Source of the DNA: Uranotaenia lowii
Taxonomy: Eukaryota > Arthropoda > Insecta > Diptera > Culicidae
Reading direction: 5' to 3'
DNA: 64,000 nucleotides
Assembly (NCBI RefSeq): GCF_029784155.1
Contig: NC_073692.1
Coordinates: 14,799,752-14,863,751, forward strand
Positions 3,910 through 64,000 of this stretch are shown here, piece by piece. Below the pieces are notes generated by a model. That model made no database searches. It worked only from the letters and a program-made list of their open reading frames with translations, and was not told the origin of the DNA. Each line of letters begins with the position of its first letter. Position 1 is the first letter of the stretch. The translations under genes were made by a program, and so were the position numbers.

Positions 3910-4000
3910 GTGCATCGTCAAGTGGAATCTCACATTCTTCGATTACGACCTCAGAGGAACCGAGTGAGATTACTATGCTAATCACTGACAACATCAATGA

Positions 4001-5817
4001 GAATGTGTTGTTAATAAAACGCTGAAGGGGTGCAACATGGTGAAACCACTTCTCAGGATTCTCTATTACCATTTTTGTTAAAGCAGGCACAATGATTCCG
4101 TTGATTCTCTCAACCTGCCCGTTACCGCGAGGGACACCCGTAGTGGATAAGATGTGCTCTATTCCCTCGTCTTCACAGAAACTTTGAAATTGTGACGACG
4201 TAAACGCAGTTCCACGATCGGACACAATCCTAGCGGGATTCCCGAAAGTAATTTGTTGCAGCTCCAATTTACGCAAAACTTCATCCGTCGTTGTAGATTT
4301 CACTGGATAAAGCCAGACAAATTTCGTAAAAGCATCCACGACAACAAACAAGTAGCGATAGTTCTTTTTGGATGCTGTCATCGGTCCGAGGTGATCAACA
4401 TGGTAAGTGGATAGAGGGAAATCTTCTTTGGGAATTGGATACAGCAATCCTTCCTTTTTCCCAGCTTTTCGTGTGGCCAATATACAAGGAATGCAACTCT
4501 TGACCACTTTATCAAGTCTTGAATCTAAGTTGTCGATCCAATATTCACGAGAGAGCAGATCTTTCATTTTTCTGGCACCAAAATGACCCTGCTCGTGCGC
4601 CTGCCGAAGTACACTGCTCTGCATGCTCCCAGGAATCACCAAAAGTTTCGCTCCTTCATGTTGTCTGTAGAGGACCCCATGATCCAAAAAATACTCCCCG
4701 TAAGGTTCCGTTTCTAACAACTTTATGATTGCGTTCAGCTTTTCATCCGTTTTCTGGTTGGCTTTCACTTGCTCGATTACACTTTTTTCGATGAAATACA
4801 CTGCTGGAGTTCGGCTCAAGGCGTCCACGTGCCTCATCTGCATTCCTGGTCTATGCTCCAACTTGTAGTCAAACTCTCCCAATAGCAGTGCCCAACCAGC
4901 AATTCTTGGTGAAATATCTCGTTTTTCCATAGTCATCTTAAAAGCTGCACAATCAGTGACTATTTTGAATGGAATTCCAAGTAAATACACCCGGAGCTTT
5001 TTGAGTGCAGATACAATCGCTAAGACTTCCAATTCATAGCTTGAGTAGTTTTTTTCAGCTGGTGACGTCTTCCGACTATAATAGTAGACGGGATGCAACT
5101 TATCATCTTCCACACTTCTTTGAAGCAGAATAGCGCCATACCCCTGTTTGCTAGCATCCGTGTGCAACTCTGTAACGGCTTGTGGGTGGTACAGAGCTAA
5201 TGCTGGCCGAGAACATAATGCAGTTTTAAGTTCTTGGACCGCGGCCAACTGTTCGGGCCCCATAACGAACATAGCATCCTTTTTGAGCAGATCAGTTAAG
5301 GGTTTAGCGATTATCGAGTAGCGTGCAATAAATTTCCGAAAGTAACCAGTCAATCCAAGAAAGCGCTGGATATCCTTGAAGTTTTGAAGGTTTGGGAAGC
5401 TTGTTACTGCATGGATCTTAGTTTCAGAAGGTTTAACGGATCCTTCTTCCACATCATAACCCAAGTATTGGATGTTCTTTTTCAAAAACTGGCATTTTTT
5501 CCACTTGATTTTTAGGCCGTTTTGTTCTGCCACTTTCAAAACTTTCTGCAATTTGGTAAAAGCTTCCTCCTCATTTTTGGCTGGTATTAAAAGGTCGTCT
5601 ATATATACCACTACGGTTTTGTCCTCAATCAGTTCTCGAAATATATCGTGGATATAACGTTGGAACACCGTAGGTGATGTGCTTAATCCGAATGGAGTAT
5701 ACAGAAATTTAAACTGACCAGATGGTGTGACGAAAGATGTAAATTTCCTGCTTTTTTCTTCCATCGGAACATGAAAAAATCCGTTCTCAAGATCCAGTGC
5801 TCTCTGTTAGATGAATT
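4001..5817 (-). pseudogene. pol: Ty3/gypsy pol: RT (from motif A), RNase H, integrase core
   Basis: On the minus strand the frame runs from RT motif A (DLENGFFHVPM, about 5,790) through YIDDLLIPA (catalytic Asp pair, about 5,600), RNase H (LHTDASKQGYGAIL, about 5,160), the integrase zinc-binding HHCC region (about 4,480-4,600) and the catalytic core with Asp in YHVDHLGP, Asp in VSDRGTAF and Glu in GNGQVERING. It has no internal stop. It lacks the RT N-terminus, protease and gag, because the viral array is joined at about 5,818-5,825. Its 3' continuation lies at 803-1,320. The element is not autonomous. Confidence 0.9.
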
Positions 5818-5825
5818 ATTTTACT

Positions 5826-6819
5826 CCGGATGCAGGCAATTATGGAAAATGGTCGGATTCCTCTCCAAGTCCTTATGGTGGCGGAGATGACGGGGCTCTA
5901 TCAAAACGAGAGAATGGCTCCTGCTGAAGTCGCAGATCAGATCCTTCATGCCGCGTGCGTGGCAATCCTAAGGAACCCGGATACGATCGCGTGTTGCGAC
6001 TTAACACAAGGGACACCGCTGAGACCAGATGCCCCCGGTAGTTCTGGTGCTGCAGACGACGCATTCATAGACCCAGCAAATCCCGACGCGGTGTTTAACG
6101 AGGTGATGGTAAGAATCAGAGGGGACCAGGATTCACGGCCCTATGTGACAACGGTGGCTGCGTATGCGTGCGCAGTCACATCAGTCGCCAAAAAGGGAAT
6201 AGTTACAACGCAATGCCTAGACAAGATCATGGAGGGTATCCGCACTGATCTGGGTCGACAGATTACTCTTTCTGTCGATCTAATCAGGAGGTACCATGAT
6301 AGGTTCCCGATCACTTTCACTGATGAGAACGTAGCAGAACGGTTCCGGACCATAGAGCAAATCATCCCAGAAGAGAATATGAGACTCCAAATCATCGTGA
6401 GACAGGTGGCTCTCTCCGGCTTAACCTGCATTACGATTATTAAGAGGGCTCTTGATTTGGTCCCTAACTTCCCTTGGGGGAGGGTAATGGCACTGTTTCC
6501 AGGCGAGGCACGTGTTGCCATGAATGCATTCCGTTTAGTGGATCGTAACCCTTATTATGGGTTTGTACACTCACTCGAGGGGATCGCCGCGAACAAATAT
6601 CGAAATTTAGCTTGGGTCTCTAGGGAGGCCTTGGTTAAGTACCAGGGGGAGTCAGACCTAAAGGCATACATGGGACTCCCGAGAACATGCCAGTACCCGG
6701 AAAGGGTTCAGGCTATCTTCGAAGCTTACGATCTTGACCAAGCAGCGGCGGGGGATGCTAGAGCTGACGATCAACTAGTGCAGGAGCTTATCCAAGCTTC
6801 TGCGAATTTTGCATATTAG
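5826..6819 (+). pseudogene. Monomer 1: C-terminal half of nucleoprotein-like gene
   Basis: It begins abruptly at CCGGATGCAGG next to the truncated gypsy RT and ends at the TAG common to the array (6,817-6,819). About 330 codons match the C-terminal part of the 477-codon array ORF. One extra T near 5,863 relative to the other monomers shifts the first dozen codons out of frame. The protein looks like the helical core of a negative-strand virus nucleoprotein. The closest guess is chuvirus-like, resting on overall character and the circular-permutation logic and not on a decisive motif. Confidence 0.6.
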
Positions 6820-7036
6820 ATATTGACCATTACTAAATTCCGTATATACCCTATATTATCAAATATATATGTATATAACCTAGGATTAGTTAGCTATATA
6901 AGTCATATATATCCAATATCTACTCGTAGTTGTTAAGACTTTTAGATCATCATATAACCTTAGTAGACTAAGTTAGAATAGAGAGAAAAGAACAGAAAAT
7001 CCAGAAAAAGACTAGAGTACTTAGTAATAAGTTGAG
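6820..7036 (+). repeat. 213-217-bp AT-rich spacer between viral gene copies
   Basis: The spacer between the N stop and the next N start recurs at 12,936-13,148, 14,583-14,795, 17,807-18,023 and 25,556-25,768. The copies are almost identical, and length differences are confined to a (TA)n run. It has no coding potential. In the founding insertion it would be the viral sequence that joins the 3' end of the gene to its own 5' end. Confidence 0.75.
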
Positions 7037-7075
7037 GTGGGAGATTGTATAAAAACATATGGCCAGAAGGCACAA

Positions 7076-8251
7076 ATGTTAGTAAGAGAGGATTTTGATT
7101 ATATTCGAGATAAGCCGACTGTATCGAGAGCGTTTAAATCAAAGTTTGAGTTCCAAGACGTTATATTTCACATTGGTGATACCTTGTTTGAGTTTCCTCA
7201 CGAGAGGTTAATATTGACTAAAGAGCAATTAAGTAAAGAAGGAATATTGGCGTGTAGGCTGGTATTCCCCGGTTATCTTATCCGCAGTATTAGATACTGC
7301 GCATATGCGGATTACGCTCGTATCTGCAAAGAAGCGAGCAAGATAGGTAAGAAAGGTAAGAAGAATCCGGCTGACGGGAATAGTCCCGGTCCTTCACCAG
7401 CGAAATCACTGAAAAAAGCTCCGGTAGATCGAACCGCATCAGAGGCCCAAGAACAGCAGTTAGTCTTGACTGCTCAACCGGATGCAGGCAATTATGGAAA
7501 ATGGTCGGATCCTCTCCAAGTCCTTATGGTGGCGGAGATGACGGGGCTCTATCAAAACGAGAGAATGGCTCCTGCTGAAGTCGCAGATCAGATCCTTCAT
7601 GCCGCGTGCGTGGCAATCCTAAGGAACCCGGATACGATCGCGTGTTGCGACTTAACACAAGGGACACCGCTGAGACCAGATGCCCCCGGTAGTTCTGGTG
7701 CTGCAGAGGACGCATTCATAGACCCAGCAAATCCCGACGCGGTGTTTAACGAGGTGATGGTAAGAATTAGAAGGGACCAGGATTCACGGCCCTATGTGAC
7801 AACGGTGGCTGCGTATGCGTGCGCAGTCACATCAGTCGCCAAAAAGGGAATAGTTACAACGCAATGCCTAGACAAGATCATGGAGGGTATCCGCACTGAT
7901 CTGGGTCGACAGATTACTCTTTCTGTCGATCTAATCAGGAGGTACCATGATAGGTTCCCGATCACTTTCACTGATGAGAACGTAGCAGAACGGTTCCGGA
8001 CCATAGAGCAAATCATACCAGAAGAGAATATGAGACTCCGAATCATCGTGAGACAGGTGGCTCTCTCCGGCTTAACCTGCATTACGATAATTAAGAGGGC
8101 TCTTGATTTGGTCCCTAACTTCCCTTGGGGGAGGGTAATGGCACTGTTTCCAGGCGAGGCACGTGTTGCCATGAATGCATTCCGTTTAGTGGATCGTAAC
8201 CCTTATTATGGGTTTGTACACTCACTCGAGGGGATCGCCGCGAACAAATAT
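7076..8251 (+). pseudogene. Monomer 2: nucleoprotein-like gene cut by LINE/glycoprotein insert
   Basis: The frame is open from GTG at 7,037, but the first ATG is at 7,076. The head domain (about 90 residues) has a pattern reminiscent of BTB/POZ folds (DVIFHIGD...FEFPHERLIL), followed by a Lys/Pro/Ser-rich linker and then the helical C-terminal part. The gene is interrupted after AAATAT at 8,251 by a 4,465-bp insertion and resumes at 12,717. ATAT is present on both sides of the insert. Confidence 0.6.
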
Positions 8252-11171: not shown

Positions 11172-12716
11172 ATGAAGAGCATATACGTAACAAAAGGCAA
11201 AATCCACTTTATTGGATATGATAACTGCACAATAAATGTCAATGGTGTTGAAATGTCAAACCAGAGAGGAGAATTCCCTGGTCACCACTTCGGATTAATA
11301 AATTACATGTGTGACAATGTCATAGGTGAGTTAGTTAGCGACATGGTCTGCAATAACTGCGAGATGTACTGCCCTGAGAATGCAAAAATAGATGGTTGCC
11401 CAACCGGTATCATGCCTGTACTAGTTGGTTTGCTAGTTGGTATGGTGCTAGCTGTTGTTGGTGTTTATTCAGTAAGACGAGCTCATAGTTCATATAAAGT
11501 CTTAAGGAATAAATACAAAAAAGTCAAGGATTCTGACACAATTGATGTTGTAGATGAGAGTATAGAGCCTGAGATTTGCCACACTAAGTGTCCCAAAGAT
11601 GTTGCAGCCAATACTAAGGCCTTGTACATTGCACCTAGCCGTGGTAGCTGCCCGGATCCATCAGTTTACCTATTTTTGCTTGCACTAATGTTCGGATTGG
11701 CACTCAGCTGTGACACAACAATGTACATGTCCTCCGAAGGCATGATATGTGAACAATCAAGATGCTACACTTCTAAGACTTATTCATTTTCTTTCACATC
11801 AGGGTCCACTGTTTGCTTTAAGGATAACACTGGTGAAACATTGAAAATAAGATTAAGATCAATAGAAATGACGCATAGATCACAACTGCTCTATTATACC
11901 TCAGATTACAATTTGGATGTTAAATATTTCTCAAAATGCATGGGGACAGATATATGCTGGACTGGTGGCTGTCATATTAAGTCAATGCACAAAGACCTTG
12001 AAATTAAGCCAGGGAAGACACAATTGGTAGGGTACGGATGCCAGTCTAATGACCTCAAGTGTGAATTCTCTGGGTGCTTTTACCATACAAAGTGCACATA
12101 CTATAGGTGGATTTTGAATCCCACTGGGGTTAAAGTGCCAGTGTACAAGGTGCTGAGTTCATTCTGGACCGTTGGAATGTCGTTGACTTATAAAAATATG
12201 ACTGTTGACAGGGATATGAATGTGTATAATCCTAACGTCGATATTGAAGTGGACACAATTGGTAAAGTGCCAATGTCGATATCTTCAGTTAGTACACCAA
12301 TTGACCATTTGGACAGGTATGTTGCATTGATATCCAACAACTTTTACAATGTTGATGCATCATCAATAAACATGCCTGAGTCTGACAAATTAGGAGACTT
12401 GCAAATATCTACAGATGGTAATAGCATTAGTTACAACACCCATGACGTATCGTGCTCAGTTGATTCGTGTGTCCCGAGGTGTCACCATCCACCCTCTAAG
12501 GTGAAGAGGATGCTTGAGCATATCACCAATTACATTCCTATTAATGCAAGTTCATTCAACAATGGAGACACTGTTAAACACACTACCAAAACAATTGGCA
12601 TGGTAAGAGTGACCTTCGGAAGCTTTGACATACACAACTTGAAAGTGGCACCAGCATACTGCTCACATAGGGCACTAACCACCTTTTCATGTACAGCATG
12701 TGAAGTTATACCATAT
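11172..12716 (+). pseudogene. Bunyavirus-like Gn/Gc glycoprotein fragment (EVE)
   Basis: The ATG at 11,172 opens about 515 codons. In order they hold a Cys-rich end of Gn, a hydrophobic membrane segment (about residues 78-98), a basic cytoplasmic tail, a second hydrophobic stretch acting as Gc signal (about 170-185) and a Cys-rich Gc ectodomain with ICWTGGCH and GCFYHTKC clusters, as in class II fusion proteins of the phenuivirus type. It stops at the junction with the N tail (12,717), so the end of Gc and its anchor are lost. The frame runs on into N by chance (stop 12,933-12,935). A phasivirus-like source is plausible but unproven. Confidence 0.6.
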
Positions 12717-12935
12717 CGAAATTTAGCTTGGGTCTCTAGGGAGGCCTTGGTTAAGTACCAGGGGGAGTCAGACCTAAAGGCATACATGGGACTCCCGAGA
12801 ACATGCCAGTACCCGGAAAGGGTTCAGGCTATCTTCGAAGCTTACGATCTTGACCAAGCAGCGGCGGGGGATGCTAGAGCTGACGATCAACTAGTGCAGG
12901 AGCTTATCCAAGCTTCTGCGAATTTTGCATATTAG
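12717..12935 (+). pseudogene. Monomer 2 nucleoprotein tail
   Basis: The last 73 codons of the nucleoprotein-like gene resume exactly where the insertion interrupted them (CGAAATTTAG...), in frame with the Gn/Gc fragment, ending in TAG. It is identical or nearly identical to the same part of monomers 1 and 3, which indicates little time since the array formed. Confidence 0.8.
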
Positions 12936-27427: not shown

Positions 27428-28014
27428 ATGCCAGTGGTTGACATTAAATTAGGTACCGCGTTGGTTAACACTTATGACGGATCACCAGAAAAATAAGATG
27501 CTTTTTTGGATGCGGTGTCATTGTTTTCTGACATTGTGGACTCAGAATTTGCAGCTGCAACGGCAGAACAGCAAACAGCGGCTCGGATTACCGTTGTTCG
27601 TTTCATTTAAACTAGACTGTCTGGAGTTTCGCGCCAGGCAGTAAGAGAGCAAAACAATCTTCATCCAATATTATAGACATAATAAAAACGCGATGTTCGT
27701 CGAAGAACAATTCTGACAGCAATGTGGCTAAACTGAAGGTGGTAAAGCAATACTCTTCCGTACAAAAATTCTGTAATTCAGTAGAGATTCTCGCTAGGGA
27801 ATTACAAAATATGTATGTAGCCGAAAGAATTCCGCACGATAGGGCGGAGACTATGGCCACTAAACGATGAATGGAAACACTCATCAGTGACATAAAAAAC
27901 TCTGACACCAAGCTAATTTTAAAAGCAGATAACTTCGCAAATATTAAAGAAGCAGTGCAAAACCTGATCCCAAAATGAGCCTCAAGTGAGGTTTGGAAAG
28001 AACGAATAAAATAG
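27428..28014 (+). pseudogene. gag: Ty3/gypsy gag remnant
   Basis: ATG 27,428 starts a KLGTALVNTYDGSPEK capsid-type opening, comparable to the gag openings at 20,160 and 46,270. Stops at several points and frameshifts follow. A last coherent stretch ends EVWKERIK then TAG at 28,012-28,014. The same ending is seen at 59,185-59,265, right of the gap. Confidence 0.7.
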
Positions 28015-28556
28015 TTCCAAATTATAAGTCGCGTCATTCACTTCGATGAAAAACCACTTTTCAGACCACTTTTTTGAACTTTTTGTGACCATTTCATTAA
28101 AAAAAAAATTTAAAAAATATTTCTTGGCTTCATGATGTAGACATAAACTCCAGCTTTCATATGCATAAAGCAAATATTTTTTGGTCGTGTAATAGATGAA
28201 CTACAGCACTTTTCCTGAGGCATGTTTTTTCGGATTTTTTTTTCTTTCATGCTGAATAACGAGAAAACTATAAGCTTTAGCTATATATAATGTTCTAAAT
28301 ATATTTTACTGACATTACAAGGTTTTTGTTGTTATAAGTTTTGTATGAAGTTCAAAATAATTCAAACGAATTAAATAGATTTTACTTTTGGAGTGTCAAA
28401 ATGACACTCTAAGTCGGTAAAAGGAGTTTTTTTGTCCAGGCTTCCAGGGTTCGTCCATAAATAAAGTAAACATGCAATATTAAAGAACTTTTGAATTCAT
28501 TTGGGGTCCCCAAAATAATTCAGTGGTGAGCTTAATTCTTCCTTTCCATACCAATA
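28015..28556 (+). other. Non-coding A/T-rich segment with a short hairpin
   Basis: No coding frame or element boundary is evident. A perfect 8-bp inverted repeat (GAGTGTCA-AAA-TGACACTC) lies at 28,391-28,409, and poly-T/poly-A runs are frequent. The segment is repeated at 59,266-59,807. The first 160 bp or so differ more between the copies than the rest. Confidence 0.6.
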
Positions 28557-28633
28557 TTGAATGATTTCTTAAAAGCTCACCAATTCGAGTATATCGCATT
28601 ATTTCAAGGGACAGTTCTGGACAAAGAGTTGTT

Positions 28634-29926
28634 ATGCCCATTAAACCATTTGGCTACAGTTGGATATTTTGTGCAATGGATGAACAATGCAGGGCATTAC
28701 CTGGAGACTTTCCCATTGATAAATACCAAGATAGCATAAATGCTTATTGCAAAAGGCGAGACCAATGGATGTCCGATGTTAATGGCCTTGAAGCCAAAGG
28801 GGTTACTAAGCTATTGATTATCCCAAGGTTGATGATCAATCATGTTGAAGAAACAGATAACTATGGGGAAGGTAACCGTGATCTCGATTTTTATGATTTA
28901 GTTTCTCAGCAAATCGGGCAAACTAGTTCTCCTGTTGAGATTACATTTATGAATGAGGAGGAAGACGAAAGACTTCTTTATGCAGGTCAACCTCCCCCAA
29001 AAAATCCAGATGGAAAAACTCTGGATAGTATGACAGAAGACGAGTTTCAAAACTTTGTCACAGCAGTTAAGCCATAGGTGTTTCAATTTAAGGGTCCTGG
29101 AGATGACATCAAAAACTATAAAAATCAGATAGAGAGGTTAGAGCGAAAGCTAAAGATAGCAAATAAAGAGCTCCAAGATAAGACACAGGAATTTGACAAA
29201 ATAGTCCTTGATCTCAATAAGCAAATCAACGATAAGACTAGCAGCTCTCTGCAAGGAGAAAACCTTGACACCAATGCAGTAAAGAGAGTGGAAAAAGAAA
29301 AGTCCCCCTATAAAAGAGAAGAGCTTCGATCAATCCTCAATTTGGCAAAGACAAAATCATCATCAATTTATTCATCATTTTGGGCAGCTGCACCAGATTT
29401 TGAACTCCTTATTAATCTGCTTGAGTCAAAATTCGACAAAAATGATATTATTGAAATGACAGGAGATCTGTCTAGGCTTAGCGAGGTATATGCTAAAGTT
29501 TATATTGAGCACATGATTAAGATCTCTCTAGAAACAGGAATAGGGAACTCCCGCGATATAAAGAAAATCTTTCAGATTCCAGAAGATCATTCGTTCCAAG
29601 ATATGATCTTAGGGATTTTTAATGCTGGAACTGCTGACCATACTTTGCCTGACAAGATAAGAGAAATTCATTCTCAACTCTTCTGGGATCAGCTTCCAAT
29701 TGGTTGTCAATCAAACCAAAACTCTGAAAGTTCTTTAATTTTCAAAGGACTGGGTCAGATCATCACAGACAATCAGTTGAAAATGAAATATCTTCAAGTT
29801 CATCAAGGAGAATATGACTTCCAGTTAAAATTGATGAGCAGAGACTCATCTGTTTGTGGATTCCCTTCAGACTCTACTGAGCATCCCAGGCTATTTATAA
29901 CATTATTACCAGCCGGTTCACCCTAA
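28634..29926 (+). pseudogene. Unrecognised virus-like gene of about 430 codons with one in-frame TAG
   Basis: One frame runs from ATG 28,634 to TAA 29,924-29,926, interrupted only by TAG at 29,075-29,077. The first 147 codons are globular with an acidic Pro-containing end. After the TAG comes a strong coiled-coil (about 60 residues of Lys/Glu heptads) and then a helical domain. A second frame open from 28,557 overlaps the start, so a frameshift may hide the true N-terminus. It has no signal or membrane segment and no retroelement motif. The context suggests an EVE (phosphoprotein or nucleoprotein type is possible). The duplicate at 59,885 has the same TAG. Confidence 0.4.
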
Positions 29927-29965
29927 TTCCTTTTAAATCAAAAAGTGGGAGCTCAAGATCTGAAT

Positions 29966-30069
29966 ATGGCAAATTACATCAGCTCAAAGTTTATTTTTGC
30001 AATGCGCCAGTTAGCAACCTGGTCACCCATCTGGTTAACCAAACACCAATTTCCAGACGAAAGACCTGG
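29966..30069 (+). pseudogene. Start of a second gene of the same presumed virus
   Basis: After a 39-base gap a new ATG (29,966) opens MANYISSKF..., about 35 codons, and the frame then runs without a break into helicase sequence of a different virus at 30,070. The gene order (long ORF, short A-rich junction, new ATG) looks like a viral gene junction. It is too short to identify. Confidence 0.35.
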
Positions 30070-31128
30070 TCGCCTGGTCGGTCAGGATTTTATCCTGAGC
30101 ATGACAAAGGAGGGACGCGAATCCATACTGGCCGCAATGACACGGAAGTACCCCGAGATCGATGCAGAGACACTGAAGTTGCACGTCAGAACAGTGGCAT
30201 CGGTCTTGGTCAACGGATCCTCGATAAAGTATACACGCGTACTTTTAGACGAAGCGCTAATGGCCCATGCCGGTACGATAGGTTACGTAGTTGCCTTAAC
30301 GGGTACGAGGACGGCCTTGATAATAGGGGATATCATACACCAGATTCCCTATGTTGACCGCGACCACATGTGCGAGCTTCGCTATTACTCTCCAGGCCGA
30401 TAAGGAAATGTTAACTCGGGAAGGTTGCGGCACTAGTGCGAAGTCGAAGGTCTTGACTGTGCATGAAGCGAGTGTGCCTATCGCGTTCCCTAAACTGACT
30501 TTGTCCGAATTGGGATACACCCGGGCTTCGGGGGTGTAGAGACTCTGTGCTCAGAGGGGATCTACATCTTCGACAACAGCCCCAGCGTAAAGAGCTTTCT
30601 GGGCACGAAACCGCGGCAGACATATTCGCACGCGTATTCTGTGACAGCGGACGCTTATGTACAAGGACCGATTCGTTCTCACAAGTCGGTACACAGAATT
30701 GATGCTGAATCAACAAATACTCGCGAATATAGACAATATCCCAATAATGAGTCAAAAGCGACCGGAAATAATATGGGTAAACGGCCCCCCGGGTTGCGGA
30801 AAAACGTACACGATAGTACAAACCGCAAAGATGTCAGCGAACCGTCTGGTCGGTCAGGATCTAATCCTGAGCATGACAAAGGAGGGATACGAATCCATAC
30901 TGGCCGCAATGACACGGAAGTACCCCGAGATCGATGCAGAGACACTGAAATTGCACGTCAGAACAGTGGCATCGGTCTTGGTCAACGGATCCTCGATAAA
31001 GTATACACGCGTACTTTTAGACGAAGCGCTAATGGCCCATGCCGGTACGATAGGTTACGTAGTTGCCTTAACTGGTACGAGGACGGCCTTGATAATAGGG
31101 GATATACACCAGATTCCCGCAATGACCG
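30070..31128 (+). pseudogene. Scrambled superfamily 1 helicase fragments (virga/nege-like EVE)
   Basis: Two partial copies lie in tandem. The first (30,070-30,396) covers the region from RLVGQD to GDI-HQIPYVDRD, carrying the Walker B LLDEA; one extra codon disturbs GDIHQIP. A patch of small pieces follows (30,397-30,530). The second (about 30,520-31,128) starts upstream of the helicase, lacks about 12 codons near 30,660, then carries the Walker A GPPGCGKT and runs to GDIHQIP. The motifs match helicases of alphavirus-like plus-strand RNA viruses. It is joined at 31,129 to a retroelement leader ORF. Confidence 0.8.
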
Positions 31129-31220
31129 CAATGTTAACGGAAGAGCTTCTGTGGAGCTATAGAGAGCTCCAGATGGAAATTGCATCCCACGAGGAGCGCA
31201 GACACACTCAGGAGCAGTAG
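31129..31220 (+). pseudogene. sORF2 fragment of a Ty3 leader
   Basis: The stretch around ATGTTAACGGAAGAGC is shared almost exactly with 47,876-47,915, part of the leader ORF at 47,788. The following codons (ELQMEIASHEERR) end at TAG 31,218. From 31,221 to 31,563 there is A-rich leader without coding potential. Confidence 0.6.
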
Positions 31221-31563
31221 CAGACGTGCAGGAACAGTAGCAGCCACAAGGATAGCAACCCACAATGAGGACAACGAATAGCAGAACCAAGGATGAACAA
31301 TCAGGAGAGTACCGTGCGAAAGGATTGAGGAGATCCGTTATACTAAATAGTTATAACATTTTAGGTAAATCCACGGAGAATGTAAAAAAAAACCAGGAAA
31401 GGAGTTACAACAACAAATAATGATGGGTAAAAACTGACAAGGTGAGTCAATTAAAAATTATTTTGATGGTGAGGATTAACTATTTGGATAAAAAATTAAG
31501 TTTGAAAATTTATTTTGCTTGTTTCCGTAGTTAGTAGTGTATACGTCTTTGGTGATTCCGTAC

Positions 31564-31791
31564 ATGGAACCCATTGACAACTTGAATGAAATTTTGGGTT
31601 ACCTATTGATAAACCTCAGAAACTTGAGAAAAAGCCCTAACAGGCAATATTTAGAAAATACGTTAATTAAAAAACGGAAATTTTGTGACGCTTCTTCCAG
31701 AGAGGCAGTTGAAATAGTGATACAGCTTGAAGGCAAGCGTATCCCACAAACAGTGGAATACTATAGACAGAGGTTGGAAGAGACCAGTTAG
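31564..31791 (+). CDS. Short gag-leader ORF (pre-Gag helix)
   Basis: ATG 31,564 opens 75 codons (LNEILGYLLINLRNLRKSP...), helical and basic. Comparable openings (LLEVILTNLRKNP at 45,975; LLEQLTNILSNLKKSK at 49,470; AIIKLHENLKKCSSY at 34,020) occur at the same place in other Ty3 copies, where they run into gag. Here the frame ends TAG before any capsid sequence. It is probably the detached N-terminal extension of Gag. Confidence 0.5.
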   Translation: MEPIDNLNEILGYLLINLRNLRKSPNRQYLENTLIKKRKFCDASSREAVEIVIQLEGKRIPQTVEYYRQRLEETS

Positions 31792-31829
31792 CACGCCTAC
31801 CCTATTTGGAAAATATAAAGATTAGGAAA

Positions 31830-33120
31830 CGAACGCGACTTATGCTGTGCGCATTTATTTTACTCACGCCAGCATAAAATTGCCACCCGGTCGGACGATA
31901 AACAAAACAGCGACCGAACGCGCATTTTGTTTTGTCTGTCTCAAATCTCTTAGCCCGTGGGAATCGTTATGCTTAATCATTCGCATAACATTCCGATGCT
32001 AAGCAATAAAAGGGCAGTCAGGAGAAAATACGCCGTTCAGTCCGTGGTATAATTCTCGTTCAGTCCGTGGTATAATTCTCGTTCAGTCCGTCGTATAATC
32101 GTTCTCGTTTAGTTCGTTCGTTTAGTCGGTAATAGTGTAAACCCCGTCGAAGAATAGAAGTGAAGAACATTCTAACTAAAGTTTAGTGATTGAATGAAAT
32201 TCAATGAATTGTAAATCCTCTTGAAGAATAAAGGTGAAGAACATTCTAACTAAAGTTTAGTGATTGAATGAAATTCAATGAATTGTAAATCCTCTTGAAG
32301 AATAAAGGTGAAGAACATTCTAACGCAAGTTTAGTGATCGAATGTGAAGAACATTCTAACGTAAGTTTAGTGATTGAATGAATAGAAAAGTGAAGGACAT
32401 TCTAACGCAAGTTTAGCAATCGAATGAAGGAATCACTTCATAAAACAAAAACAGTTGTAAACCCTCTTGAAGAATAGAACAAAACTCGATAGTGTAAAAC
32501 CCCTCGTAAAATAAAAGTGATAAATAAAACTCCATAATCGAGTTATTTTCACGATAAAACATCCGAAAGCCAAAGTTGATGTCCATAGTAGACATCAGCA
32601 TTTAAGAACATTCCTAACTGACCTATCAAGAAATTTGTAAATATTGTATTAATATTGGCTGTACATTTTTCTGCTTCGACCAACGCTTTGGTAAAAGTGG
32701 AACAATGCAAGTCTTGTTGAATTTCCTTAAGATAAACATGCTGAGTACCGATCGTACACCATGCATACCATGCTGTACGTACCGATCGTTTTATGACCCA
32801 CTTGAGGGCGATCGCTCGAATGCGCGATCGCATGATTGGTTACAAAGACACTTTTTAGTGTTTACAAATAATTGGATCGCTCGAATGCGCGACCATAAGA
32901 TTGGTTACAAAGTTTACAAATAATTGGTCTTCGACCGAACCGATCAATGTGGTGCTCCAGACTTCTATCTTGATAAACAAATTCCTTATACTAACACGTA
33001 CTTATAAGTTTATAAAAACCTCTTGAACTGAAATAAAGAAGTCAATCCGCGACTTAGTTAAAACGAGTACACATCATGTTTTCATCGCGATTGCGTAGCC
33101 TTCTCCGAAAACCCCCCACA
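31830..33120 (+). repeat. Long LTR with internal minisatellites (left end uncertain)
   Basis: The right end is sharp: ...CCCCCCACA at 33,120 followed at once by the PBS TGGCGACCGTGACAGG. The left end is not defined. Internal repeats are a 24-bp unit (CGTTCAGTCCGTGGTATAAT) three times at about 32,034-32,106, a 74-bp unit twice plus degenerate copies at about 32,149-32,420, and a 65/53-bp pair at 32,810-32,928. No protein frame is credible. Repeat arrays in an LTR often affect transcription, but nothing here proves it. Confidence 0.6.
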
Positions 33121-48724: not shown

Positions 48725-49336
48725 ATGGGGTGGTTTTCTAATGAAGAGATAATAAACACCAACAATCAAATGCCGGCCGAAAATCGTCTTCAAACGCAAG
48801 CAGTTGCGCCATGTGTGTTGACCGCATTGGCGGTATCGTACGTTCTAGTAAAAGTGTTTATCAGACTACAAAAGGGGCACGTCATAGTCCACAACGTTAA
48901 CGTACCAGTGTATGTGGACATTACAATAAAGAGCATTCCTAATTTATTAAAAATGCTAGATACTGAAAAGTGCGTGGAGATAACAAAGAAACATAAAACA
49001 CACCACCTAGTGGAAGTAACGAACGAAGTAACAAAAATAGAAGTATTGCCACACTTCGTCCACACAAAAACTAAAAAACTAGAAAAATATGCTAGTCAAC
49101 TTTTGAGTGAACAAAAAGGACATCTAATAGTATCCACAAGCCAGGGTTTAATGACGCATGGAAAAGCGTTGAAAATGAAAACAGGTGGCCAAGTGATAGC
49201 GTACATCTGCAGAAAACAGCGATTACCGATCGGTACGTCCATCATTAGCAGCAGAATCTACGTAGTATCCCCGGAATGGTGTAAAGGAGTGCGCCCACAC
49301 CAAATTGAGAATCGAATTATGATGTTATGGCTGTGA
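48725..49336 (+). CDS. Extended sORF1: MGWFS miniprotein fused to about 140 extra residues
   Basis: It starts MGWFSNEEIINTN, with a membrane segment (AVAPCVLTALAVSYVLVKVFI) and basic residues as in sORF1, but instead of ending it continues to residue 203. The extension is rich in beta-type residues, His and Lys (EVTKIEVLPHFVHTKTKK) and ends MMLWL. Nothing in it is recognised. It could be the ancestral long form, or a fusion with another gene. The frame is intact, and it has the same position relative to the pre-Gag ORF as the short forms. Confidence 0.55.
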   Translation: MGWFSNEEIINTNNQMPAENRLQTQAVAPCVLTALAVSYVLVKVFIRLQKGHVIVHNVNVPVYVDITIKSIPNLLKMLDTEKCVEITKKHKTHHLVEVTNEVTKIEVLPHFVHTKTKKLEKYASQLLSEQKGHLIVSTSQGLMTHGKALKMKTGGQVIAYICRKQRLPIGTSIISSRIYVVSPEWCKGVRPHQIENRIMMLWL

Positions 49337-49448
49337 CCCAGCATCCAAACAGAAAAGCAGGAAGAAGTGAACGAGAACTTTTCCACCTAAACGTAAGTTT
49401 TTACGCTGAGATATTAAACTATTAAAAATAACGATGACTAGTCACTAA

Positions 49449-49615
49449 ATGTCGGATGAAAGTTCAAGTCTTCTCGAACAATTGACGAATATCCTGTCAA
49501 ATTTGAAAAAATCTAAATTTAACAAAATAAGAACAGAAACTTTATTTGAGAAATCGGATCTAGCATATAGTTTAACGAGGCAAATTGAAGAAAAATTAAT
49601 TTTGCTGGAAGATTA
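49449..49615 (+). CDS. Pre-Gag helix ORF, truncated
   Basis: ATG 49,449 opens MSDESSSLLEQLTNILSNLK..., 55 residues, TAG 49,613-49,615. It is homologous in position and character to 31,564 and to the first part of the gag frame at 45,942. No capsid sequence follows. Confidence 0.5.
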
Positions 49616-50809
49616 GATTCCAGATTGTTACCAATTCGGTAACATTGTTTTGTTTTTATTTTAAATAATATTTATTGATGGGTGGAGTTAGGATTAATTT
49701 TTATAAGCAGCTAGCTCAAGGCAACGCAACGGCGAATTCAAATTCAAACCCGTGGTGGTCATCAGCGCAGAACATGGCGAAACCAAAAACGCACATGGTA
49801 TGAAGCGTTGCGTATAAGTCGAACGCAACAAATACACCATCACGCGTTCTGGAAGAACGCAAGCAGAAGCGAACTTCGAGATACGAGGTTTCTTGGCGAG
49901 TCAAAGCGCATCACCAAGTCTCTTGGTTTCCGGCGGCGAGCTAGTGCAGACGTATTCAGACAGTGCTCCGCAAAGTGTTGGGACAATAACGAATTCCCAC
50001 GGTCCGAACAAAGATCAGCGTTCAAGTTAGCCAGCTCGAGTTTTGTACCGATCATCGCCACAGCCAGAGACCAGCTTGGACCGAATCCCATCTCCCGTGT
50101 GTGCGTGACCGTCATACGCGTGGCTCGATCATTTTCCGTCCGCATCTCATCCAAGCCCGAGGTGTGGCAAACAAGCGCGCCAAGCCAGCAGCGCGAACCA
50201 GATCAACGACGACCAGCCTGGTGTGCGTGACCAGGCATTACGCTTGCGTTGGTCGGTCTGGTTTGCCCGTCCCAAACGAGTCGACAGAGAGACAGAACCG
50301 CATCATCCAGCCGGTAGTGCGTGGTACCGCATTATTGCCTCCCGTTGCCTCACACGTCGTGTCCGAGCGTGTAGACGATCCAGCCGAAGACCGAGGTACG
50401 CGCCTAGTCCAATGCGCGTGGTTGGCAAGCCATAGGAGAGAGACCGAACCGATCAACCGTTAGTGTGGTGCGTGGTACCGCGCCGCTCCTCCCGTTCCAT
50501 CCAGGCGTCGCCCAGTGCGTGGCGACCAAGACGACCCGACCGAGTAAGACGATTGTCCCGTTACCATCCCGTGTGCTTTTCATCGAGAATTCGCCGAATA
50601 CATCTAATTTGAAACCAAGGTATTTATCTTTTAGGAATCCACCCATCCGAAAACTCCCCCAGCCTAACAAACGCCCTGAGACCCAGGAACAAAAGAGGCC
50701 TTGAGCGTCCAAACCCGTTAGTCCCCGTGGCTTTAGACCAGGGACTGGGTGTTGCTGGGCAGCCCCTTCTGGGCTGAACCCGTTCCTGGGGAAAAAGTAA
50801 AGTTTCACC
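49616..50809 (+). repeat. Probable LTR and flank of a Lys-primed Ty3 element
   Basis: The right end, GTAAAGTTTCA (then CC and the PBS TGGCGCCCAACG), is clear; the left end is not. Related strings GTGCGTGACC and GTGCGTGGTACCGC recur at about 50,100, 50,220, 50,310 and 50,465, so the LTR holds internal repeats. Frames in this G/C-rich stretch look accidental. Confidence 0.45.
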
Positions 50810-50954
50810 TGGCGCCCAACGTGGGGCCCGAACCCACGACCCTGAGATTAAGAGTCTCATGCTCTACCGACTGAGCTAGCCGGGCGAGCATGAGACTCTT
50901 AATCTCAGGGTCGTGGGTTCGGGCCCCACGTTGGGCGCCAGGTGAAACTTTACT
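50796..50954. repeat. 69-bp perfect inverted repeat around a copied tRNA-Lys
   Basis: Bases 50,796-50,864 are the exact reverse complement of 50,886-50,954, with a 21-base spacer. Each arm holds the last 14 bases of an LTR-PBS junction plus the 3' three quarters of tRNA-Lys. The spacer is the tRNA 5' part. Because the LTR bases are included, this is not two ordinary tRNA genes facing each other. Confidence 0.9.
50813..50885 (-). tRNA. tRNA-Lys(CTT) copy with CCA encoded
   Basis: Read on the minus strand this is a complete 73-base tRNA: acceptor GCCCGGC, D-arm, anticodon loop with CTT (GACTCTTAATC), T-arm GGTTCGGGCC and discriminator G, followed by CCA (complement 50,810-50,812) and then LTR sequence. 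Genomic eukaryotic tRNA genes do not encode CCA, so this is a reverse-transcribed primer. Pol III box elements are present, so accidental expression is possible. Confidence 0.85.
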
Positions 50955-51975
50955 CTGTACGATTATGAAACAACTGTGAAGAAGGACGACGGATTGGTAT
51001 CTTTGAGGGGAGGTTACACATGCCCGTATAATAAAGATGGCTGTATGGATTCAGAAGGAGGGAATACGTACTGGGAATATACTCCTCAGGATGATTGCCT
51101 CCAGAATCAGTACAACGTACTTTACTCTGGAGAGGCTACGGAGACTATAGCCCTAGTCAACGGTCAAACTCAACGAATGTATTCAGTGAAGACGGGCGAA
51201 GTTATATTCAGCCTTATGACCACCGTTACGGCCCCTCTATGTTATCTGAGAGGATTCTCCACAGAACATCCTAGTCTCTTTATCTATGTATCTAAGGATG
51301 GCGAGAAGCCCTTTTCCAGGAAGATAAAGTCCGCTAAGAACATGGACATGTTCACATACGTGAACAGTAAGTTCGTGCATGTGGAACGTCACCTTCGGTC
51401 TAGCATCGAGAGCCTATACAGAGATGTAGTAAGACACAGATGTGACTTGGAACGAACTGTCTTGGAGACACGATTGGGGCTAGCTAGCTCAAATCCGATT
51501 GAATTTGCATACTTAGTAATGGGAGGACCCGGATACACTGCCCTCCAGATGGGAGAGGTAGTGTATATCATACAATGCCAGCCAGTTGACGTACAGCTAC
51601 GCGAAACCCCTTCTTGTTATCAGGAAATCCCGACCTATTACCAGAATAGGTCGGTGTTTGTGACTCCCCGCTCTAGATTGATTCAACAGTACGGCACTCA
51701 GGTTGACTGCAATTCTCTGATGTACCCTACATACTTCTTAAACGAAGACTGGTACAAGGTGCATTCAGGGCCACATCTAGTAAAAGCTCCAGGAGCTCTG
51801 AATCCTAGAGTGAGAGATACATGGAAATATACCGACCCTGGGTCTCTCATACAAGCAGGACTTTACACAAAAGACGCCCTAGATAAGCTTAGGCACGAAG
51901 TTATGTTCCCCTCAGAGAGGTCCGCTGTCACAAACATATTGACCCGTATTACGACCCGCATGATGCGACATGATG
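50955..51975 (+). pseudogene. Chuvirus-like glycoprotein EVE, 5' and 3' truncated
   Basis: The frame is open before 50,976 and begins at the palindrome edge, so there is no native start. About 330 codons of ectodomain have many paired Cys and a conserved middle block (HLRSSIESLYRDVVRHRC, then MGGPGYTALQMGEVVYIIQC), a pattern I associate with the gB-like class III glycoproteins of chuviruses. No membrane anchor is present. The true viral part ends near 51,975, and the frame runs on in low-complexity Val/Ser codons to 52,061. It is joined directly to retroelement LTR/tRNA sequence on the left. Confidence 0.6.
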
Positions 51976-58684: not shown

Positions 58685-59184
58685 NNNNNNNNNNNNNNNN
58701 NNNNNNNNNNNNNNNNNNNNNNNNNNNNNNNNNNNNNNNNNNNNNNNNNNNNNNNNNNNNNNNNNNNNNNNNNNNNNNNNNNNNNNNNNNNNNNNNNNNN
58801 NNNNNNNNNNNNNNNNNNNNNNNNNNNNNNNNNNNNNNNNNNNNNNNNNNNNNNNNNNNNNNNNNNNNNNNNNNNNNNNNNNNNNNNNNNNNNNNNNNNN
58901 NNNNNNNNNNNNNNNNNNNNNNNNNNNNNNNNNNNNNNNNNNNNNNNNNNNNNNNNNNNNNNNNNNNNNNNNNNNNNNNNNNNNNNNNNNNNNNNNNNNN
59001 NNNNNNNNNNNNNNNNNNNNNNNNNNNNNNNNNNNNNNNNNNNNNNNNNNNNNNNNNNNNNNNNNNNNNNNNNNNNNNNNNNNNNNNNNNNNNNNNNNNN
59101 NNNNNNNNNNNNNNNNNNNNNNNNNNNNNNNNNNNNNNNNNNNNNNNNNNNNNNNNNNNNNNNNNNNNNNNNNNNNNNNNNNNN
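58685..59184. other. Assembly gap, exactly 500 N
   Basis: The round length marks a gap of unknown size. Frames reported across it are meaningless. The polymerase domain of the virga-like EVE is lost in it, if present. Confidence 0.99.
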
Positions 59185-59884
59185 CTTCGCAAATATTAAA
59201 GAAGCAGTGCGAAACCTGATCCCCAAACGAGCCTCAAGTGAGGTTTGGAAAGAACGAATAAAATAGTTCCAAACTGTAAGTCGCGTCATTCACTTCGATG
59301 ACAAACCACTTTTCAGACCACTTTTTTGAACTTTTTGTGACCATTTCATTAAAAAAAAATTTTAAAAATATTTATTGGCTTCATGATGTAGACACAAACT
59401 TCAGCTTTCATATGCATAAAGCAAATATTTTTTGGTCGTGTAATAGATGAACTACAGCACTTTTCCTGAGGCATGTTTTTTCGGATTTTTTTTTCTTTCA
59501 TGCTGAATAACGAGAAAACTATAAGCTTTAGCTATATATAATGTTCTAAATATATTTTACTGACATTACAAGGTTTTTGTTGTTATAAGTTTTGTATGAA
59601 GTTCAAAATAATTCAAACGAATTAAATAGATTTTACTTTTGGAGTGTCAAAATGACACTCTAAGTCGGTAAAAGGAGTTTTTTTGTCCAGGCTTCCAGGG
59701 TTCGTCCATAAATAAAGTAAACATGCAATATTAAAGAACTTTTGAATTCATTTGGGGTCCCCAAAATAATTCAGTGGTGAGCTTAATTCTTCCTTTCCAT
59801 ACCAATATTGAATGATTTCTTAAAAGCTCACCAATTCGAGTATATCGCATTATTTCAAGGGACAGTTCTGGACAAAGAGTTGTT

Positions 59885-61177
59885 ATGCCCATTAAACCAT
59901 TTGGCTACAGTTGGATATTTTGTGCAATGGATGAACAATGCAGGGCATTACCTGGAGACTTTCCCATTGATAAATACCAAGATAGCATAAATGCTTATTG
60001 CAAAAGGCGAGACCAATGGATGTCCGATGTTAATGGCCTTGAAGCCAAAGGGGTTACTAAGCTATTGATTATCCCAAGGTTGATGATCAATCATGTTGAA
60101 GAAACAGATAACTATGGGGAAGGTAACCGTGATCTCGATTTTTATGATTTAGTTTCTCAGCAAATCGGGCAAACTAGTTCTCCTGTTGAGATTACATTTA
60201 TGAATGAGGAGGAAGACGAAAGACTTCTTTATGCAGGTCAACCTCCCCCAAAAAATCCAGATGGAAAAACTCTGGATAGTATGACAGAAGACGAGTTTCA
60301 AAACTTTGTCACAGCAGTTAAGCCATAGGTGTTTCAATTTAAGGGTCCTGGAGATGACATCAAAAACTATAAAAATCAGATAGAGAGGTTAGAGCGAAAG
60401 CTAAAGATAGCAAATAAAGAGCTCCAAGATAAGACACAGGAATTTGACAAAATAGTCCTTGATCTCAATAAGCAAATCAACGATAAGACTAGCAGCTCTC
60501 TGCAAGGAGAAAACCTTGACACCAATGCAGTAAAGAGAGTGGAAAAAGAAAAGTCCCCCTATAAAAGAGAAGAGCTTCGATCAATCCTCATTTTGGCAAA
60601 GACAAAATCATCATCAATTTATTCATCATTTTGGGCAGCTGCACCAGATTTTGAACTCCTTATTAATCTGCTTGAGTCAAAATTCGACAAAAATGATATT
60701 ATTGAAATGACAGGAGATCTGTCTAGGCTTAGCGAGGTATATGCTAAAGTTTATATTGAGCACATGATTAAGATCTCTCTAGAAACAGGAATAGGGAACT
60801 CCCGCGATATAAAGAAAATCTTTCAGATTCCAGAAGATCATTCGTTCCAAGATATGATCTTAGGGATTTTTAATGCTGGAACTGCTGACCATACTTTGCC
60901 TGACAAGATAAGAGAAATTCATTCTCAACTCTTCTGGGATCAGCTTCCAATTGGTTGTCAATCAAACCAAAACTCTGAAAGTTCTTTAATTTTCAAAGGA
61001 CTGGGTCAGATCATCACAGACAATCAGTTGAAAATGAAATATCTTCAAGTTCATCAAGGAGAATATGACTTCCAGTTAAAATTGATGAGCAGAGACTCAT
61101 CTGTTTGTGGATTCCCTTCAGACTCTACTGAGCATCCCAGGCTATTTATAACATTATTACCAGCCGGTTCACCCTAA
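59885..61177 (+). pseudogene. Second copy of the unrecognised 430-codon virus-like gene
   Basis: It is equivalent to 28,634-29,926, with the same in-frame TAG (60,326-60,328), so the nonsense codon predates the duplication. One coding change (Asn to Ile) is near 60,593. A gene fragment equivalent to 29,966 follows at 61,217. Confidence 0.45.
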
Positions 61178-61320
61178 TTCCTTTTAAATCAAAAAGTGGG
61201 AGCTCAAGATCTGAATATGGCAAATTACATCAGCTCAAAGTTTATTTTTGCAATGCGCCAGTTAGCAACCTGGTCACCCATCTGGTTAACCAAACACCAA
61301 TTTCCAGACGAAAGACCTGG

Positions 61321-62379
61321 TCGCCTGGTCGGTCAGGATCTTATCCTGAGCATGACAAAGGAGGGACGCGAATCCATACTGGCCGCAATGACACGGAAGT
61401 ACCCCGAGATCGATGCAGAGACACTGAAGTTGCACGTCAGAACAGTGGCATCGGTCTTGGTCAACGGATCCTCGATAAAGTATACACGCGTACTTTTAGA
61501 CGAAGCGCTAATGGCCCATGCCGGTACGATAGGTTACGTAGTTGCCTTAACGGGTACGAGGACGGCCTTGATAATAGGGGATATCATACACCAGATTCCC
61601 TATGTTGACCGCGACCACATGTGCGAGCTTCGCTATTACTCTCCAGGCCGATAAGGAAATGTTAACTCGGGAAGGTTGCGGCACTAGTGCGAAGTCGAAG
61701 GTCTTGACTGTGCATGAAGCGAGTGTGCCTATCGCGTTCCCTAAACTGACTTTGTCCGAATTGGGATACACCCGGGCTTCGGGGGTGTAGAGACTCTGTG
61801 CTCAGAGGGGATCTACATCTTCGACAACAGCCCCAGCGTAAAGAGCTTTCTGGGCACGAAACCGCGGCAGACATATTCGCACGCGTATTCTGTGACAGCG
61901 GACGCTTATGTACAAGGACCGATTCGTTCTCACAAGTCGGTACACAGAATTGATGCTGAATCAACAAATACTCGCGAATATAGACAATATCCCAATAATG
62001 AGTCAAAAGCGACCGGAAATAATATGGGTAAACGGCCCCCCGGGTTGCGGAAAAACGTACACGATAGTACAAACCGCAAAGATGTCAGCGAACCGTCTGG
62101 TCGGTCAGGATCTAATCCTGAGCATGACAAAGGAGGGATACGAATCCATACTGGCCGCAATGACACGGAAGTACCCCGAGATCGATGCAGAGACACTGAA
62201 ATTGCACGTCAGAACAGTGGCATCGGTCTTGGTCAACGGATCCTCGATAAAGTATACACGCGTACTTTTAGACGAAGCGCTAATGGCCCATGCCGGTACG
62301 ATAGGTTACGTAGTTGCCTTAACTGGTACGAGGACGGCCTTGATAATAGGGGATATACACCAGATTCCCGCAATGACCG
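61321..62379 (+). pseudogene. Second copy of the scrambled helicase fragments
   Basis: It is equivalent to 30,070-31,128, including the GDI-HQIP extra codon, the small-piece patch and the 12-codon deletion. It runs into the sORF2 fragment (62,380-62,471) exactly as in copy 1. Confidence 0.8.
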
Positions 62380-62815
62380 CAATGTTAACGGAAGAGCTTC
62401 TGTGGAGCTATAGAGAGCTCCAGATGGAAATTGCATCCCACGAGGAGCGCAGACACACTCAGGAGCAGTAGCAGACGTGCAGGAACAGTAGCAGCCACAA
62501 GGATAGCAACCCACAATGAGGACAACGAATAGCAGAACCAAGGATGAACAATCAGGAGAGTACCGTGCGAAAGGATTGAGGAGATCCGTTATACTAAATA
62601 GTTATAACATTTTAGGTAAATCCACGGAGAATGTAAAAAAAAAACCAGGAAAGGAGTTACAACAACAAATAATGATGGGTAAAAACTGACAAGGTGAGTC
62701 AATTAAAAATTATTTTGATGGTGAGGATTAACTATTTGGATAAAAAATTAAGTTTGAAAATTTATTTTGCTTGTTTCCGTAGTTAGTAGTGTATACGTCT
62801 TTGGTGATTCCGTAC

Positions 62816-63043
62816 ATGGAACCCATTGACAACTTGAATGAAATTTTGGGTTACCTATTGATAAACCTCAGAAACTTGAGAAAAAGCCCTAACAGGCAAT
62901 ATTTAGAAAATACGTTAATTAAAAAACGGAAATTTTGTGACGCTTCTTCCAGAGAGGCAGTTGAAATAGTGATACAGCTTGAAGGCAAGCGTATCCCACA
63001 AACAGTGGAATACTATAGACAGAGGTTGGAAGAGACCAGTTAG
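62816..63043 (+). CDS. Second copy of the pre-Gag ORF
   Basis: The 75-codon frame is identical to 31,564-31,791. It is preceded by the same A-rich leader. Confidence 0.5.
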   Translation: MEPIDNLNEILGYLLINLRNLRKSPNRQYLENTLIKKRKFCDASSREAVEIVIQLEGKRIPQTVEYYRQRLEETS

Positions 63044-63081
63044 CACGCCTACCCTATTTGGAAAATATAAAGATTAGGAAA

Positions 63082-64000
63082 CGAACGCGACTTATGCTGT
63101 GCGCATTTATTTTACTCACGCCAGCATAAAATTGCCACCCGGTCGGACGATAAACAAAACAGCGACCGAACGCGCATTTTGTTTTGTCTGTCTCAAATCT
63201 CTTAGCCCGTGGGAATCGTTATGCTTAATCATTCGCATAACATTCCGATGCTAAGCAATAAAAGGGCAGTCAGGAGAAAATACGCCGTTCAGTCCGTGGT
63301 ATAATTCTCGTTCAGTCCGTGGTATAATTCTCGTTCAGTCCGTCGTATAATCGTTCTCGTTTAGTTCGTTCGTTTAGTCGGTAATAGTGTAAACCCCGTC
63401 GAAGAATAGAAGTGAAGAACATTCTAACTAAAGTTTAGTGATTGAATGAAATTCAATGAATTGTAAATCCTCTTGAAGAATAAAGGTGAAGAACATTCTA
63501 ACTAAAGTTTAGTGATTGAATGAAATTCAATGAATTGTAAATCCTCTTGAAGAATAAAGGTGAAGAACATTCTAACGCAAGTTTAGTGATCGAATGTGAA
63601 GAACATTCTAACGTAAGTTTAGTGATTGAATGAATAGAAAAGTGAAGGACATTCTAACGCAAGTTTAGCAATCGAATGAAGGAATCACTTCATAAAACAA
63701 AAACAGTTGTAAACCCTCTTGAAGAATAGAACAAAACTCGATAGTGTAAAACCCCTCGTAAAATAAAAGTGATAAATAAAACTCCATAATCGAGTTATTT
63801 TCACGATAAAACATCCGAAAGCCAAAGTTGATGTCCATAGTAGACATCAGCATTTAAGAACATTCCTAACTGACCTATCAAGAAATTTGTAAATATTGTA
63901 TTAATATTGGCTGTACATTTTTCTGCTTCGACCAACGCTTTGGTAAAAGTGGAACAATGCAAGTCTTGTTGAATTTCCTTAAGATAAACATGCTGAGTAC
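63082..64000 (+). repeat. Second copy of the minisatellite LTR, cut by the window end
   Basis: It matches 31,830-32,748, with the 24-bp and 74-bp repeat arrays unchanged in copy number. Confidence 0.6.

Follow-up and report, generated by a model that had tools for sequence, protein, structure and literature searches.

A palindromic copy of a primer tRNA-Lys between an LTR and viral glycoprotein sequence in the mosquito Uranotaenia lowii

How does a palindrome built from an LTR end and a complete tRNA come to lie in a mosquito chromosome, with viral glycoprotein sequence starting at its edge? We analysed a stretch of 64,000 nucleotides of the Uranotaenia lowii genome (assembly GCF_029784155.1, contig NC_073692.1, positions 14,799,752 to 14,863,751), hereafter the window. 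An earlier note on this DNA had proposed that plus-strand synthesis of a retrotransposon ran through the whole tRNA-Lys primer, past the modified base that normally stops it, and then snapped back on itself and became joined to viral cDNA. Our analysis supports this interpretation as largely right. The palindrome is probably the relic of a single round of LTR-retrotransposon reverse transcription that went astray, with read-through, snap-back, a move to viral cDNA and two-LTR integration. The copying of the whole primer, the change at tRNA nucleotide (nt) 58, the viral joint and the target duplication can be read from the DNA itself.

The palindrome and the copied primer

An inverted-repeat comparison across the 64-kb window yields two perfect arms of 69 bp (69/69; 50796-50864 against 50886-50954) around a spacer of 21 bases, TACCGACTGAGCTAGCCGGGC (50865-50885), as the earlier note had described. 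An inverted-repeat search extends the arms to 77 nt at 96% once inner bases are counted. The odds of 69-bp arms arising by chance are 4^-69, or about 3e-42, and a chance origin is excluded. The primer binding site (PBS) does continue through a full tRNA-Lys(CTT) including CCA, since 50810-50885 complements 73 tRNA nucleotides plus CCA. The features of this part of the window are as follows.

49626-50807, plus strand: 5' LTR, TGTTACC...TTTCA, 1,182 bp, with start and end common to the family copies
50808-50809, plus strand: CC, two bases separating the LTR from the PBS
50810-50827, plus strand: PBS, 18 nt, complementary to tRNA nt 76-59
50810-50885, minus strand: DNA copy of a complete tRNA-Lys(CTT), 73 nt plus CCA (ARAGORN, Rfam and sequence comparison)
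50828, plus strand: C opposite tRNA nt 58, where A58 would give T; a presumed misincorporation at m1A58, with its mirror base at 50922
50796-50864, plus strand: left arm of the palindrome (inverted-repeat comparison)
50865-50885, plus strand: spacer, the copied tRNA nt 21-1
50886-50954, minus strand: right arm, tRNA nt 22-76 (50886-50940; nt 22-73 plus CCA), then 14 nt of the LTR end (50941-50954)

The LTR-PBS joint has the form of strong-stop DNA, with an LTR ending in CA and the order TTTCA-CC-TGGCGCCCAACGTGGGGC. A plus-strand stop before m1A58 would leave 18 nt of tRNA; here 76 nt were copied, and in 12 other loci of the LTR family the copied length ranges from 17 to 76 nt. Among 19 other family loci, a selection from 40 scored of 269 candidates from which no rate is derivable, 9 have an 11-nt PBS followed by a shared leader, a tenth reaches this leader after GTG, and 7 carry an extension of at least 18 nt along the tRNA. 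A candidate LTR start at 49368 was rejected, as the family alignment sets the start at 49626.

ARAGORN calls tRNA-Lys(CTT) on both strands of the palindrome, and Rfam RF00005 (cut-off 29) reaches 60 bits on the minus strand but stays below its cut-off on the plus strand, at 25.1. Matches to miRNA models, all below their cut-offs, reflect the hairpin. That both programs recognise tRNA-Lys would suit a genuine inverted pair of tRNA-Lys genes or a tRNA-derived SINE, but the DNA encodes CCA, has a base other than A at nt 58 and carries bases of the LTR end beside both arms, whereas a tRNA gene would show A58 and unrelated flanks without an encoded CCA. The palindrome also adjoins a full LTR of a family that has the same LTR-PBS joint in other copies. 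Comparison of the tRNA flanks, which the earlier note had suggested as a check, thus excludes a genuine tRNA gene pair, and we give an origin as gene or SINE practically no credence.

The identical palindrome with an identical glycoprotein edge lies at two further sites on the same contig, 58 and 60 kb away. These copies bear on two other explanations. Palindromes are a known error of long reads, and the window holds a gap of 500 N and a near-identical duplication of 4.8 kb, which would favour an assembly artefact or a sequencing palindrome. Against this, the arms are 69 bp rather than of read length, the three placed copies share palindrome and edge but have slightly different LTRs (4/1182 differences between the window and locus L047), and fold-backs elsewhere in the genome have target-site duplications; an artefact is extremely improbable. 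It is likewise very unlikely that the palindrome is an inverted duplication formed after integration, by break repair at the LTR/tRNA junction. The cluster is rich in later duplications, as this would predict, but the right arm breaks off within the tRNA at one end and 14 nt into U5 at the other, where it exactly abuts the viral sequence, and the palindrome is present in all three copies found.

The base at tRNA position 58

Both arms carry G at nucleotide 58, whereas the Rfam column has a consensus of A. This base is the sole difference between the palindrome tRNA and our reference, a tRNA-Lys(CTT) with A58 printed in a study of human proteins (PMC8216282); our expectation of a genomic A58 rests on that printed sequence and on the Rfam column. 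According to PMC13191261, the modification m1A58 occurs in primer tRNAs of retroviruses and of some LTR elements and stops the plus strand; the primer list given there has tRNA-Lys3 without tRNA-Lys(CTT).

Further extensions of an LTR along the tRNA, which the earlier note had suggested looking for, are found in the genome. The exact word TTTCACCTGGCGCCCAACGTGGGG occurs at 18 sites, six of them in the three palindrome copies and 12 at other loci (a control pattern gave 0). Eight of these 12 pass nt 58 with at least two further matching bases (L050, L052, L054, L055, L056, L057, L058 and L060), and four of the eight reach the tRNA 5' end (L054, L055, L056 and, with a gap, L050). We took L053, L059 and L061 as stops at 17-18 nt: the first two show G at nt 58 followed by at most one matching base, and L061 goes no further than 17 nt. 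L051, where C at nt 58 is followed by a single further match, is ambiguous and was left out of the counts given below. A second word, covering tRNA nt 25-57, occurs 24 times, at six sites in the cluster, at L054 and L056 and at 16 others. These 16 look like copies of mature tRNA, not genes, because CCA follows the acceptor end in 15 of them (in one case shifted by a 1-base deletion); the remaining one has CCT. The sequence adjoining the 16 copies differs, which points to several LTR families. By eye, the tRNA copy ends in a short direct, not inverted, repeat of the LTR end at L083 and L091.

The palindrome in the window, 8 same-family loci and the 16 others make 25 read-through loci, and both search words exclude nt 58. 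Read in the tRNA sense, 15 of them carry G at this position, 10 carry T and none carries A; these are loci and not proven independent events, as L080, L083 and L089 have one LTR end in common but different flanks. Across the 20 full or near-full tRNA copies, nt 58 is mismatched in 20/20, against 27/1440 at all other positions, a figure inflated by a 1-base shift in L092. With the five partial read-throughs added, the count at nt 58 becomes 25/25. A search aimed at A58, kept outside the 25, found A in two further tRNA copies: L096 has CCA and a single other change, at nt 25, and L095 covers tRNA nt 41-73 with an altered CCA. Faithful bypass, unmodified primers or later change may account for these two.

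Ordinary polymorphism at nt 58 was rejected, since two different non-A bases occur among otherwise near-identical copies. G and T agree with the known error pattern of m1A, in which m1A before G gives a low C signal overall among reverse transcriptase (RT) mismatches, leaving T and G (PMC4787781, in the part numbered section 27). No G58 form of tRNA-Lys(CTT) appeared in the literature searched by sequence. Two exact words found no CCA-free tRNA-Lys(CTT) gene in the 1.08 Gb (2009 contigs) of the genome; these genes may be missing from the assembly or different in sequence. The presence of CCA, an LTR end on both sides and a change confined to the m1A58 site, seen repeatedly, together give strong support to copying of a mature, modified tRNA primer. 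The claim of the earlier note that synthesis went past the modified base is thereby supported.

Fold-back, template jumping and the viral joint

Two insertions elsewhere in the genome bear on the origin of the right arm. L057 consists of an LTR, 22 nt of tRNA and an inverted LTR running back to its first base (arms of 769 bp, 100%), with outer flanks ATGT/ATGT, a 4-bp target duplication. L052 has the same plan (arms of 691 bp, 99.3%; flanks GTGT/GTGT, a 4-bp duplication). Their structure marks both as strong-stop DNAs that doubled back on themselves; each has a U3 end on either outer side, as expected for self-primed plus-strand strong-stop DNA, and the 4-bp duplications point to entry by integrase. 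The palindrome in the window lacks an inverted copy reaching the U3 end and a U3 end on both outer sides; its inverted copy reaches only 14 nt into U5, where viral sequence follows. At L050 and L054 the tRNA is followed by an inverted 5' part of the LTR, and the left part of the LTR is absent.

Fold-back is not the rule among tRNA copies beside other LTR ends. An inverted pair of at least 20 nt occurs in 3 of these 16 copies (351 bases each); in L084 and L085 a palindrome around the tRNA takes up almost all of the 351 bases (88.9% and 92.3%), and L079 has shorter inverted pairs of 23 and 21 nt. In the remaining 13 copies there is no exact inverted pair above 11 nt within the 351 bases. Some further details were noted in these loci. 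By eye, one extra A separates CCA from the LTR end in the inverted arm of L079 and L084. L059 has inverted LTR arms of 911 bp (99.5%; 3879-4788 and 6192-7102) around a gag-like stretch. In L052 the left LTR arm matches the tRNA-derived primer near the fold point, perhaps as a hairpin repaired to the primer; among the loci compared, this left-arm word is confined to one locus (L016, L031, L052).

The palindrome appears to belong to a larger insertion, with these features in the window.

49449-49625, plus strand: left part of the insertion target, a gag-like frame of another LTR element (joined-flank translation)
49622-49625, plus strand: target-site duplication AGAT, left copy; the right copy is at L048 9774-9777, behind a sister 3' LTR
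50955-51957, plus strand: truncated chuvirus-type glycoprotein in mRNA sense (Pfam Monjiviricetes_fusion, profile 178-509 of 653)

The window LTR is preceded by GATTCCAGAT, and the sister 3' LTR (L048 8592-9773) has a purine tract before it and AGATAAGG after it. A short target duplication of the integrase type is thus found at both ends: AGAT stands left of the 5' LTR in the window and in L047 and right of the 3' LTR in L048, this right end lying outside the window. Because the flanks joined across a single AGAT give one Gag-like frame (with one in-frame stop), these LTRs appear to bracket one chimeric insertion; the 5' LTR and the sister 3' LTR differ at 5/1182 sites. The internal order of the chimera was read from the two neighbouring stretches L047 and L048, since duplicated pieces sit between the bracketing LTRs, which are about 17.7 kb apart. 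A candidate solo LTR at the same site, L013, was rejected: internal sequence with a purine tract lies on its left, which makes it the 3' LTR.

Homology to the chuvirus-derived glycoprotein (PF24664, E 1.5e-117) begins with the first base past the palindrome, at profile position 178 of 653, so that the viral sequence does start at the palindrome edge as had been reported. The window and L047 agree up to 51957, and the window sequence to the right of this point is rearranged. In L048 the glycoprotein runs to profile position 566 and then into a pol-like tail that matches a Tf2-1-like SH3 domain below threshold (E 0.011); the assignment of this tail to integrase was made by eye, the Pfam match being below cut-off. 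Protein searches returned two relatives of the glycoprotein and one of an open reading frame (ORF) at 48725. The glycoprotein had no match and the tRNA patterns 0 matches among viral contigs, and there was no match in the phage and plasmid collections.

Elsewhere in the window, the ORF at 48725-49336, upstream of the LTR, has a Pfam match to Ribosomal_S8 (E 3.2e-9), a domain shared by a relative, and 11172-12935 holds Phlebovirus-type G2 glycoprotein sequence with an end tail common to neighbouring ORFs. The region from 5.8 to 26 kb contains near-identical repeats. The gap at 58685-59184 is exactly 500 N, and 27933-32748 recurs at 59185-64000 (99.7%), as in a scaffold join.

The sequence shows that plus-strand DNA comprising LTR and PBS passed nt 58, with C placed opposite it as an error expected from m1A, and ran through the entire mature tRNA-Lys(CTT). 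We propose that an earlier switch of RT from the pol RNA of the element to mRNA-sense viral RNA had left a minus strand without a complement of the PBS. The 3' end of the plus strand would then have folded back and copied its own tRNA and PBS and 14 nt of U5, forming the right arm, before the folded-back DNA moved to minus-strand cDNA whose 3' end lay inside chuvirus-type glycoprotein sequence. The product, to judge from L047 and L048, would be a two-LTR chimera in the order LTR - tRNA palindrome - glycoprotein fragment - pol-like tail - PPT - LTR. This chimera would have integrated into the gag of another element with duplication of AGAT, and later have been rearranged and duplicated within the locus.

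For the palindrome in the window, snap-back is the probable origin of the right arm and no firmer than that, because the pairing is weak: by eye, 50884-50885 are unpaired against 50866 and 50865 and 5 of the next six bases pair, giving 5/8 inner bases with both terminal ones unpaired. Since the would-be primer is unpaired at its final two bases, an end-to-end template jump also fits the window, and we regard it as a possible but distinctly less likely origin. Minus-strand cDNA ended in the glycoprotein would have been extended on minus-strand strong-stop DNA and its tRNA to nt 22, and read-through plus-strand strong-stop DNA would have jumped to that 3' end and copied outwards. Such a jump accounts for the break at tRNA nt 22, which we take to be near D20; L090, another copy, matches down to nt 20. 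It also explains, with no pairing required, second-strand transfer by a cDNA without a PBS complement. L051 would be another joining of PBS-ended strong-stop DNA with a truncated coding region: it has two LTRs and the duplication CAGA, its strong-stop DNA is joined right after the PBS to a point far into the coding region, and most of the gag frame is absent from it in comparison with L053. On the other hand, the jump requires two tRNA copies with the same error at nt 58. This is less demanding given that C is the usual base opposite nt 58 beside this LTR (8/9 loci, the window and 8 family loci); L095, probably of the same LTR family, has T. Against the jump, fold-back is directly seen in L052 and L057. 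The snap-back proposed in the earlier note therefore stands as regards fold-back strong-stop DNA at those two loci, and is shared with the template jump as regards the palindrome in the window itself.

More broadly, we see about even chances that reverse transcription in this genome has a standing side route in which a modified tRNA primer is read through and the new DNA then folds back or jumps to another template. Such a route would rescue cDNAs that lack a PBS complement, make integrase-competent U3-U3 foldbacks and admit RNA-virus sequence to two-LTR proviruses, and its copies would record the base placed opposite m1A58 in living cells.

Relation to known systems

Parts of this route have precedents. 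Recombination between IAP and LCMV involves RT switching between retroelement and viral RNA, and an origin of tRNA SINEs from strong-stop DNA would place such tRNA-primed products in genomes. Neither foldback strong-stop insertions in genomes nor genomic misincorporation at m1A58 came up in the open-access literature searched, as judged by titles and the openings of abstracts, and a term search of PMC10986323 gave no snap-back.

Already known are read-through past unmodified or under-modified A58, circle junctions that hold PBS or tRNA primer sequence, and mosquito LTR elements with chuvirus glycoproteins. In TRMT6 mutant cells, the plus-strand strong-stop of HIV-1 copies past A58, up to the tRNA 5' end if tRNA-Lys3 is unmodified, as the sections considered here describe (PMC13191261). 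The U. lowii plus strand likewise extends beyond A58, but its product is genomic and integrated, and nt 58 is misread as if modified. Junctions of HIV-1 2-LTR circles can hold an LTR end followed by PBS/tRNA primer sequence (PMC5618025); unlike the U. lowii insertion these circles are unintegrated, and the excerpt of that paper mentions neither fold-back arms nor an m1A error. The RT signature of m1A, as set out in the cited part of PMC4787781, combines arrest with misincorporation that depends on the next base and comes from sequencing libraries, whereas the U. lowii signal comes from genomic insertions. Anakin elements of mosquitoes are BEL/Pao elements with a chuvirus glycoprotein within their LTR boundaries, and in the text considered their glycoproteins lie in Pao elements and are in some cases complete (PMC7642597); in U. 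lowii a fragment lies beside the 5' LTR and the PBS is that of tRNA-Lys.

The target duplications at the U. lowii insertions show that aberrant strong-stop products can enter chromosomes, so that genomes could be mined for in vivo bypass of m1A58 and a concrete route to endogenous viral elements becomes testable. The U. lowii loci join four things that are usually separate, namely read-through of the primer tRNA, the error signature left by a modified tRNA base, strong-stop DNA that primed itself and the capture of RNA-virus sequence by a retrotransposon.
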